A stretch of 64,000 bases of DNA from Acidobacteriota bacterium (lineage in GTDB: Bacteria > Acidobacteriota > Thermoanaerobaculia > Multivoradales > Multivoraceae): positions 62,001 through 126,000 of the forward strand of contig JAJCXN010000056.1 of assembly GCA_029263415.1 (NCBI GenBank), written 5' to 3'. The notes under the pieces were generated by a model. It was not told where the DNA came from. It made no database searches and saw only the letters and a program-made list of their open reading frames with translations. Below are positions 32,032 through 50,319 of this stretch, piece after piece. How positions within the stretch are numbered: position 1 is the first letter of the stretch; each line of letters begins with the position of its first letter. Made by a program: the position numbers and the translations under genes.

Positions 32032-35000
32032 CTACTGCTCTCGCTTGGTCACAACAACGTCCTTGATGCCCAGCATCACGGCGTCATGAAGCTCTCTGCG
32101 CACGGCTGAGATCTTCCGGTTGTCCCGAGTCGGATGCACACGGTTGGTGAGCAAGACAACGGCGACCTCTCGCACTGCATCGACCCACAGCGAAGTCCCG
32201 GTAAAACCGGTGTGCCCGAACGACCCGGCCGCGAAGTAGTCTCCGGCACTACTCCGACCTGACGGAGTGTCCCAACCGATCGCCCGGCTACTCGCCTCAA
32301 CCACATTCGTCCGTTGGGTGTAGCGGCGGATCGTTGACTGCTTGAGAAGACGAACGCCGTCGAGGTGGCCTCCGTTCATCAGCATCTGTAGGAAGCGCCC
32401 AAGATCGGAGGCGGTCGAGAAGACTCCGGCGTGAGGAGCGATGCCTCCAAGGCCTGCCGCGTTCTCATCATGCACCTCGCCCCAGACCAGCCTTCCTCGC
32501 CACTCGGGATCCATCTCCGTCGGAGCAATTCGCGAGAGCGGCAACGAGGCTGGCGCCGCGGTCGGCCGGTACGTAGTCGAGCGCATCGAAAGAGGTCTGA
32601 AAATCTCTCCTTGAGCTAACTCATCGAGTGTACGTCCCGTGGTGCGTTCGAGAATCTCTCCCAAGAGCAGGATGCCCAGATCAGAGTACTCCACCGACGA
32701 TCGTGGTTCGGTGTTGAGCGGCATGCCGAAGATCTCGCTCAAGTAGCCGACTCTGGATCGCTCGGTCGGGACTGTCCGCTCGCCGTGGCGCTTGTATAGG
32801 TCGGTCCACCAGAGGATCCCAGACGTATGCGACAGAAGATCCAAAACTGTGATGCCGGCCTTGGCTGGGCCCGCAAACTCGGGGAGATAGCGTTGCACCG
32901 GAGCGTTGAGATCGAGCAAGCCCCGTTCCTCGAGGAGCATGCATAAGGTGGTGGTAACAACGACCTTGGTGAGCGAGGCAATGTCATAGAGCGTGTCGAG
33001 CTCGACGTCGGCTGCTCCTAGGTCGTAGGAAAGTCTGCCAACGGCTTCGTGAAAGACCACCCGCCCGTGTCTGAGCACCATTGCGGCTGCACCAGGAAAC
33101 GCCTTGTCACTGACTGCTCGATGCAAAACCTCTCGAACCTCGCGCGCGAATCCCGGTTCAAGCCCCAACGTGCTTGGATCCGTCACTGGTTCTGCAGACC
33201 AGCGCGGCCGATCCAGGACCCGACTCTCCATTGCTCTCGGCCTCACGTCCTCGGCTGAGGTCAGCGTAGGCACAACCTCCACCGGAAGGCGGCCAGTGAT
33301 CGAGTGCTCGCCATAGATCGCTTGCACCGACGCCGTCTGCGAATAGGTCGACGCATCAAACAAGCCGAGCTCAGCGTCGGCGCCAAGAGCCAAGGTCCAC
33401 GGATCACCGAACGTGACAAACACAGCTGGGATGCCGCGCGCTTGAGCAGCGCCGATCCACTTGTCGACCCAAGCCCAAGCCGTGGACAGCGCCTCGCGCC
33501 CCCCTAAGCGCTGGGCTTTGTTCTGGGCTGCGGGCAAGTCGTCGGGCTCGGCACCTTCCGTCGCAAGCGCTTTCGTGCCGGCATTCGCATTCGCACCGGC
33601 TTCAGCTTGCCGATCTGGCACTTCAGGCACCAACCTCAACCTCCCCCAGGACCGGCGACTCGCATAACTCGCAACGAGCACGGCGTCCGCATCTGCGATC
33701 GCCTCTAGAATCGTGGAGTCTCTATCCGCAGCCGAGCTAGGGCGAACCCAGTAGTCGTTGACCGACTCCGCTCTGCGTCCGAGCTCGCGCGCGACCATAC
33801 GGGGGTTGGTCGTTCGATCAAATTCGTCGAGCAGCGAGATCACCAACACTTTGCCATTCCAACAAGTACCGAAGTTCTTGGTGCCACCAAAACAACGACC
33901 TGGCACGCCTGCGGTGAGCGACTCCTGGCCCACACCGGGCTTCACCCAGGTGACCGCGGCACGAGCGATCTGCTGCGCAATGCGGACAGAGTCAGAGCGG
34001 TCGGCAGTCAGTGGAGTCGTAGACCCCGAACGCGGTCGGTTTCCTAGCAGCCCGAGCTTCGTCTTCGCCTGCAAGATTCTTGAGACTGATTCATCGAGGC
34101 GCTGCTCACTCACCTCTCCTCTCGCCACCGCGCGCACCAAAGCATCGACCGCAACGCGCGGATAAGGAGGCAGCAGTAGCAGATCCGTACCCGCCTTCAC
34201 TGCATCGATGACCACCGAGCCGTGCCACGCGCCACGAGCGCCTTCCATGTCAAGCGCATCGCTGACAATCAAACCGTCAAATCCCAGTTCGCGGCGTAGA
34301 AGACCTCTCAACACCTGCTGCGAGCGCGAGGCAGGAGTGTCGTCGTCATCGAGTGCCGTGACCACCAAGTGGGCGGGCATGACGCCCGCGACACCAGCGT
34401 CGACAACGGCTCTAAATGGAACCAGTTCACGCTCGCGCAGAGTGGCAAGGCTTTCTGTCAGCCGCGGCAATTCAAAGTGCGAATCCTCAACCGTCGCACC
34501 GTGGCCAGGGAAGTGTTTCGCAACCGCCAATGCGCCAGCCGCCTGGACCCCGCGAACAAAAGCTGCTCCGAGCACTCCCACCTTTTCTGGGTCGCTGCCG
34601 AACGAACGCGTACCAATCACCCGATTATCTGGTTCCACAGCAAGATCAAGTACCGGTGCCAGAATCAAGTGGATCCCCAACTCAAGCGCTTCAACAGCGG
34701 TCACCCGCCCGACCTCCTGCGCCAACTCACGGTCGTCAGTGGCGCCGACTGCCATGGCCACCGGAAACCTCAGGCCCCCGTCCAACCGCATGCCGATGCC
34801 CCACTCGGCGTCCAATCCAATCAACAACGGCAACGCGCTCGCCGCCTGCAATCGATCGATCGTCGACTTTACTGACAGTGGATCGCCACCGAACAACACG
34901 ACGCCGCCGATGGTTCCGCTGCGCGCTAGAGCAACGACCTCTTGCAGCCCCGGATCGTCATCACTGAGAAAGGTCCCCGGAAGCCGTGGAAACACCATCT

Positions 35001-35133
35001 GCCCCACCTTCTGCTCGATGGTCAGGTCGGAAATCGTAGGGCCCTGCGCAACCAGAGTGGAGCACACGCAGATCACCAGCAACCCCAAAGTGCCTGCTTG
35101 CGCGATGAATCTCGACTGCGATCCCAATTTCAT
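32032..35133 (-). CDS. Glycoside hydrolase family 3 (NagZ-like) fused to class C beta-lactamase-like serine hydrolase
   Basis: GH3: AKHFPGHGATVEDSHFELP, LIVSDALDMEG; hydrolase: DIASLTKVVVTT (SxxK), YSD, HTGFTG. Confidence 0.93.
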   Translation of the reverse strand: MKLGSQSRFIAQAGTLGLLVICVCSTLVAQGPTISDLTIEQKVGQMVFPRLPGTFLSDDDPGLQEVVALARSGTIGGVVLFGGDPLSVKSTIDRLQAASALPLLIGLDAEWGIGMRLDGGLRFPVAMAVGATDDRELAQEVGRVTAVEALELGIHLILAPVLDLAVEPDNRVIGTRSFGSDPEKVGVLGAAFVRGVQAAGALAVAKHFPGHGATVEDSHFELPRLTESLATLRERELVPFRAVVDAGVAGVMPAHLVVTALDDDDTPASRSQQVLRGLLRRELGFDGLIVSDALDMEGARGAWHGSVVIDAVKAGTDLLLLPPYPRVAVDALVRAVARGEVSEQRLDESVSRILQAKTKLGLLGNRPRSGSTTPLTADRSDSVRIAQQIARAAVTWVKPGVGQESLTAGVPGRCFGGTKNFGTCWNGKVLVISLLDEFDRTTNPRMVARELGRRAESVNDYWVRPSSAADRDSTILEAIADADAVLVASYASRRSWGRLRLVPEVPDRQAEAGANANAGTKALATEGAEPDDLPAAQNKAQRLGGREALSTAWAWVDKWIGAAQARGIPAVFVTFGDPWTLALGADAELGLFDASTYSQTASVQAIYGEHSITGRLPVEVVPTLTSAEDVRPRAMESRVLDRPRWSAEPVTDPSTLGLEPGFAREVREVLHRAVSDKAFPGAAAMVLRHGRVVFHEAVGRLSYDLGAADVELDTLYDIASLTKVVVTTTLCMLLEERGLLDLNAPVQRYLPEFAGPAKAGITVLDLLSHTSGILWWTDLYKRHGERTVPTERSRVGYLSEIFGMPLNTEPRSSVEYSDLGILLLGEILERTTGRTLDELAQGEIFRPLSMRSTTYRPTAAPASLPLSRIAPTEMDPEWRGRLVWGEVHDENAAGLGGIAPHAGVFSTASDLGRFLQMLMNGGHLDGVRLLKQSTIRRYTQRTNVVEASSRAIGWDTPSGRSSAGDYFAAGSFGHTGFTGTSLWVDAVREVAVVLLTNRVHPTRDNRKISAVRRELHDAVMLGIKDVVVTKREQ

Positions 35134-48646: not shown

Positions 48647-49036
48647 CTACTCCACGATCGCTTGGTAGGTGGTGTTGGCGAAATCTTGGCGAATGTTGAG
48701 TTGGGAGTAGTGCCTCACCTGAGTCATCAGTATTCCATCCTCGGCTTCTTCGAAGTGCACCACTTTGCCGTGACGAGCGATCGAAGTCACCGTGCCCGCA
48801 ACTTCGCCGGGGTCGATGTACCCCGGCATCATTCTGCTCACTCGCTCGAGTCGCTCAGACGACATACCGACGCTCTCACGCGTGGCCATCTCCAGGCCCA
48901 GCGACTGAGCATGATCAGCGGTCTTGTTGCCTGCGGTCGCCTTAGAGGGCTCTGAGCCCAACGCCGCGCTGGCGATCAGCAATCCAGCGCCCACCAACGT
49001 TGTACACCGACAGACGGGTAGTTCGATCCTCAACAC
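48647..49036 (-). pseudogene. Core-deleted serine hydrolase relic (N- and C-terminal ends only, frame intact)
   Basis: N-part RESVGMSSERLERVSRMMPGYIDPGEVAGTVTSIARHGKVVHFEE and C-part ILMTQVRHYSQLNIRQDFANTTYQAIVE resemble the two ends of class C serine hydrolases; no SxxK, YxN or HxG. Confidence 0.65.
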
Positions 49037-49148: not shown

Positions 49149-50054
49149 TCAGGGAGGTGAAGCTGCGGCTGTGCGACGCTTGCGCGCATCGAGTTGCTTG
49201 ATCAACGAAACCGCTCTAGCGTAGTCTTCGCGGAAGCCGACGTTGGCTCCGCCCTCGGCCTTCTCGATTGCTCCAGCCAGGCTCAACAACAGATTGCCTA
49301 CCATCGCTTGAACTTCGGGATCCGGTGCGGGAGTCAGATTCTGAGCCACCGCCACTAGCGGTACTCGCAGTGCTCGAATCTCCTTACCAACGGCTCCCGG
49401 GTGCCCCTCCTCGCGATACGCCGATCGCAGCGCGCTCTCCACCTTGCGCAGCGGCGCCATCACCGAGTCGTATTGCCCCCACCACGCCGGCAGATGCTTC
49501 TTCGACCGCTGTTGGTCAGCGATATCTTGACGGCGACGTTCGGCGTAGCGTTCCTCGGCCTGCGAGTTGAGCGCCTCAAGCTGCGAGCTACCCCCACTTG
49601 AACCGGGCATTGAGTTGTACTTGCCGTTAAGCCACTTGCCGCCGGTGGTACGGAAGCGAAAGTTGACGCGTGCGATATCGGGAACGTTGCGCTCCGTGTC
49701 CCAAGGAGTAATGCTGCGCTTCCAAGATTCGGTCTTAAAACTTGCCGACTCTCCGGAACCCAAGGTCGCCGGCACCAGCAGAATCTGTCCGCCGCCATAA
49801 GAGTTTCCTCGAGAATCCATCAAGGATGCGAAGATCACCACATCGGTCAACGGCTCGAGCGAAATATTACGAACACGACCCACCAACTCGACGTGCTCGT
49901 TGGAGGTGTTCAAGATCCACTCGGTGACTTCGATCTGCTCCTCATTCGCTCTAGCTTGTGCCAATGCAGCCTCTTGGACCACCAATAGGCCAAGTAGCAG
50001 GCCAAGCAAGAAGAGTGGAAGTACTCGCCGTAGATCGCTGCTGAGTCGAATCAT
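49149..50054 (-). CDS. Secreted FxLYD-like domain protein
   Basis: Signal peptide (LPLFLLGLLLGLLVVQEAALAQ), VELVGRVRNISLEPLTDVVIFASLMDSRGN. Confidence 0.65.
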   Translation of the reverse strand: MIRLSSDLRRVLPLFLLGLLLGLLVVQEAALAQARANEEQIEVTEWILNTSNEHVELVGRVRNISLEPLTDVVIFASLMDSRGNSYGGGQILLVPATLGSGESASFKTESWKRSITPWDTERNVPDIARVNFRFRTTGGKWLNGKYNSMPGSSGGSSQLEALNSQAEERYAERRRQDIADQQRSKKHLPAWWGQYDSVMAPLRKVESALRSAYREEGHPGAVGKEIRALRVPLVAVAQNLTPAPDPEVQAMVGNLLLSLAGAIEKAEGGANVGFREDYARAVSLIKQLDARKRRTAAASPP

Positions 50055-50319
50055 GAGCCTAAGTCCCGATGTCATGAGCAAAGTTCTGGAGGATCACACC
50101 CCATCAGCGATCAGTGTATCGAAGACCCAGCGCCCTGAGCGGCCGTGCGCAATCCTGAGTAGTCCTAAGGAGCACTAAGGCCCTATGGAGCACCCACCGA
50201 CACGATCAAGGGCAAGGTTCCAGAAATCGCCTCAGCCACTGCTCGCCTGACCAGCACGAATCAGAATGCGTTAGCGTGAAGCACGTCGGAGCCCACTCGA
50301 TCCAGAAGTTGGCAGTTCA

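Follow-up and report, generated by a model that had tools for sequence, protein, structure and literature searches.

The minus-strand ORF at 49036..48647, which encodes 129 aa from a GTG start and is a remnant of a serine hydrolase, probably arose recently as an in-frame deletion derivative, effectively a pseudogene, of a secreted enzyme of the S12/class C beta-lactamase type. It lies in the window, i.e. the whole stretch of 64,000 nucleotides that was analysed. A sequence resembling a ribosome-binding site (AAGGAG) is found 5 nt 5′ of the GTG, and the codon-position GC of the remnant (0.60/0.47/0.71) is still coding-like. The initial annotation had the ORF opening with a signal peptide, and a signal-peptide-like stretch is seen by eye at its start. 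The parts of the remnant and the gene that follows it are:

48647..49036, minus strand: remnant ORF, with GTG start at 49036 and TAG stop at 48647-48649
48956..49036, minus strand: probable signal peptide, aa 1-27, read by eye from a hydrophobic stretch and a candidate cleavage site, ALG/SEP
48749..48895, minus strand: N-terminal hydrolase end, aa 48-96, aligned with intact orthologues
48737..48748, minus strand: junction residues EAED, aa 97-100, a simple fit to neither parent
48650..48736, minus strand: C-terminal hydrolase end, aa 101-129 (GILMTQ...TYQAIVE), 72% identical to the final 29 residues of the intact orthologue L007
47843..48640, minus strand: downstream TPR gene, with TPR profile matches and a distant NlpI-like match, 6 bp after the stop of the remnant

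Two ends of one hydrolase, and the missing core

The two halves had been read as the N- and C-terminal parts of the same hydrolase family. Compared separately with hydrolases, both fall in a single subfamily of full-length PF00144 (S12, class C beta-lactamase-like) enzymes and match it at the correct ends, namely: aa 48-96 at the one and aa 101-129 at the other. With L007, identity is 50% over aa 18-106 (E 1e-19) and 72% over aa 101-129 (E 3e-8), where the remnant aligns to the C-terminal 29 residues of the full-length protein. Similar values hold for the orthologues of the subfamily, being about 50% over the whole N-terminal stretch and about 70% to the last 29 residues. In several of 40 related genomes, e.g. 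at G009:C19, G012:C141 and G022:C248, both halves of the remnant are matched within one open frame. The C-terminal half is specific to the subfamily: the host paralogues reach E 0.09 there at best (L004), and the subfamily signature GILMTQxRPYTHLNIRQD is represented in the remnant by HYSQLNIRQD.

The intact orthologues match PF00144 at about 1e-64 (217-260 bits in intact relatives) and, from end to end, the PDB esterase 7pp3 (1e-108). A Pfam search with the remnant alone gives no family match at E <= 1, the gathering score not being passed, and Pfam and NCBIfam searches of the remnant returned nothing useful. Relative to PF00144 serine hydrolases (MEROPS S12 / class C beta-lactamase-like esterases) such as the 7pp3 esterase, the carboxylesterase 4ivi and EstB (1ci8), the remnant corresponds to ~50 residues at the start of the mature protein and 29 at its end, but is without ~318 core residues and every catalytic motif. 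With the intact orthologues L007, L098 and L090 of a related genus (g2), and L026 of another, it shares the subfamily signature and the N-terminal region; these proteins are ~443 aa long, whereas the remnant has 129 aa.

The host genome (G000; 6.89 Mb in 60 contigs, 99.2% complete) carries the remnant ORF in single copy, and also four intact paralogues (442-474 codons), whose matches to it are confined to the N-terminal half. An intact orthologue of the remnant is absent from this genome, in which the other copies are at most 48% identical. A search of the host with an intact orthologue recovered only those paralogues (<= 48%) and the two ends of the remnant, and the middle of the hydrolase was not found as an orphan piece.

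The spacing from HFE to GILMTQ is 322 residues in intact genes and 4 in the remnant, with ~318 codons (~954 bp) missing and the reading frame preserved. The SxxK motif (SMTK in intact relatives) is absent from the 129-aa ORF, and the second (YxN; YGP or YSV in relatives) and third (KTG/HxG; WGGA in relatives) motifs lie within the missing stretch. These results bear out the earlier description of a middle that has gone, together with SxxK, YxN and HxG, from a frame that remains intact. The junction, which had been put at about 48734-48751, is found at aa 97-100 (48737-48748), inside or adjoining that range. From established knowledge of the family, we infer that the remnant cannot catalyse the PF00144/S12 reaction, even if it is perhaps still translated and exported.

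Candidate route of a probable deletion

The loss would comprise ~954 bp lying after the first beta strand and before the last strand, with all the catalytic motifs. The likely route would be replication slippage, or else recombination, between two short direct repeats in the same frame, one encoding G-x-P-M-T-R close to the N-terminus and the other G-I-L-M-T-Q close to the C-terminus. Among the g2 orthologues, the GAPMTR and GILMTQ codons make up a direct repeat that is in frame but imperfect, GGCnnCCnGATGACCCnG, usually with 12-15/18 matches, as measured in relatives rather than in the true parent gene and at a site picked after the junction was known. In most g2 orthologues, no other in-frame 18-mer pair from the compared regions scores higher, while the repeat is weak in L026 (8/18). 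From HFE to the repeat, the remnant is ~5 codons shorter than its relatives. On all these counts, the break points are approximate. The residues EAED count against the repeat model, under which a further loss of about 5 codons is needed, and also against a blunt join, under which two hydrophobic residues must have become E and D.

The frame may have been kept by chance (1 in 3), by the repeats being in frame, or because of the disturbance that a frameshift would bring to the TPR gene, which lies 6 bp downstream. Since in the related genus the flanking sites are usually the best in-frame repeat, nothing further would be needed for a repeat-mediated deletion to leave the frame unbroken. Deletion between short direct repeats is an established general source of bacterial pseudogenes. 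The remnant resembles such pseudogenes in its single large internal loss and in the candidate short repeats at the ends of that loss (in relatives), but differs in that its frame is preserved and its ORF is still open.

Distribution, divergence and alternative explanations

The initial annotation had proposed a comparison of the locus in related genomes. The search covered 40 relatives, drawn from the host's own family and from other families. Matches occur in every genome of the same family and in none from another family. The intact subfamily is present in 20 of the 21 genomes of g2 and in G003 of another genus; the sole g2 genome without it is 88% complete. An alignment-based search over one genome per species was also carried out, and the best 80 of 380 loci were examined, some of the genomes behind these loci being also among the 40 relatives. 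The neighbours in this public collection carry the labels Acidobacteria, Thermoanaerobaculia, Holophagales or Vicinamibacteria and are mostly metagenome assemblies; on that basis the host is probably an Acidobacteriota. All the family members among the best 80 of 380 loci are full length or cut by a contig end. Neither the 40 relatives nor the best 80 of 380 loci contain the deletion, or short homologues that would make up a family of mini-proteins. A scan of genome contigs with the remnant alone as query and a scan of viral contigs found no relative, and a literature search found nothing relevant. Halves belonging to different families, or widespread 129-aa homologues, were the outcomes set against the initial annotation's reading; neither was observed.

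Several short frames of other hydrolase copies were considered as parallel deletions and rejected: those in G013 (twice), G018 and G023 are due to contig ends, and that in G015 to a frameshift. A member of the hydrolase family in the last of these genomes (L171, at G015:C7) is apparently broken by a frameshift, and decay of extra copies is thus not confined to the host genome.

Across the 78 residues that make up the two ends, the identity of the remnant is 68% to g2 and 60% to G003, compared to 71% between g2 and G003. It keeps 36 of the 47 residues that are invariant in the intact group (77%), a proportion close to that of the adjoining intact TPR gene (64/82, 78%); a nearby intact oxidoreductase is ~72% identical to g2. 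A few near-invariant core residues are changed in the remnant, e.g. L85S and P53R. Change in the ends is thus roughly on a par with that in working genes, a level that fits a late loss in the lineage. That they are not unusually diverged points to a recent deletion, as far as one lineage and 78 residues can indicate.

The initial annotation had offered a recent deletion, an assembly artefact and a domesticated secreted mini-protein as possible explanations, of which the recent deletion is the best supported. If the gene were intact in the organism and the assembler had skipped about 950 bp, the ends would likewise show no excess divergence, this being predicted alike by an assembly error and by a very recent loss. 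Moreover, the assembly is a draft in 60 contigs and the only one available for the species or genus. However, assembly collapse normally needs a repeat of k-mer length, while elsewhere in the genome the ORF is matched over at most 31 bases, at 87%, and the flanking 2.6 kb contains no repeat that extends across the junction. The missing middle is found neither as a separate piece nor at a contig end, and the junction is ~110 kb inside a 380-kb contig. The lack of both a junction-spanning repeat and an orphan middle makes a repeat-driven collapse unlikely, and we regard a skip by the assembler in general as an unlikely explanation. Chance similarity, or an old separate family that owes nothing to deletion, is scarcely credible: the remnant has no Pfam match of its own, but its halves match the two ends of one gene with the E values given above and no short family was found among the best 80 of 380 loci, by which this explanation is refuted.

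It is very improbable that the first helix and strand of a hydrolase with the beta-lactamase fold, fused to its last strand and helix, make up a new exported mini-protein that is expressed and selected for a non-catalytic secreted role, perhaps linked to the TPR protein. An open frame with a start, a ribosome-binding-like sequence and a signal peptide, together with the coding-like GC and the tight spacing to the TPR gene, would be expected of such a protein, yet the same data are explained by a recent deletion. Moreover, none of the relatives examined has the short form, the AlphaFold2 models are not confident (mean pLDDT 42, or 46 when homologous ends are included), there is no excess conservation and some residues that are near-invariant in the core, such as L85 and P53, are changed. 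The TPR gene is also not beside intact copies in the best 80 of 380 loci. The mini-protein option of the initial annotation therefore finds no positive support from relatives, fold or conservation.

Most likely the ORF is what an ordinary deletion has left, in one genome, of a member of a known family. In annotation it should be labelled as an S12-type hydrolase remnant and not as a hypothetical secreted protein, which has little import beyond that. Were expression and within-species conservation of the short form established, the remnant would provide a small example of a new protein formed by the loss of an enzyme core.

Neighbouring genes and other features of the window

The TPR gene starts with a GTG 6 bp past the stop of the remnant, and its product is also exported-looking; its match to the lipoprotein NlpI is distant and far below the cut-off. 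The remnant and the TPR gene are probably on one transcript, and retention of the frame may simply spare the downstream gene from disturbance. Promoter and terminator scans gave nothing above chance. In related-genus genomes, the intact orthologues are followed by an ApaH-like gene, whereas the remnant is followed by the TPR gene. In the best 80 of 380 loci, no intact hydrolase has the TPR, 310-aa or SpoU gene as a neighbour, and the host's ApaH-like gene is on another contig than the remnant, so that synteny gives no pointer to the ancestral position. The 310-aa protein (49149-50081, minus strand) is exported-looking and has a weak FxLYD match below the cut-off; it shows no Pfam match, and a search of 40 genomes from the family and order yielded no relative.

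A perfect 14-nt inverted repeat is present at 48779-48792 and 49922-49935, with one arm in the remnant ORF; by a simple estimate it is a ~1% chance event. Further along the window, a gene for a PIN-domain protein (PF01850; 46002-46517, minus strand) adjoins one for a Phd/YefM antitoxin (PF02604; 46551-46850, minus strand), the two forming a VapBC-like toxin-antitoxin pair. Finally, the minus-strand gene at 32032-35133 encodes a 1033-aa protein that is apparently a fusion of a GH3 (NagZ-like) part, recognized by eye, and a class C beta-lactamase-like part, its second half matching the hydrolase family.
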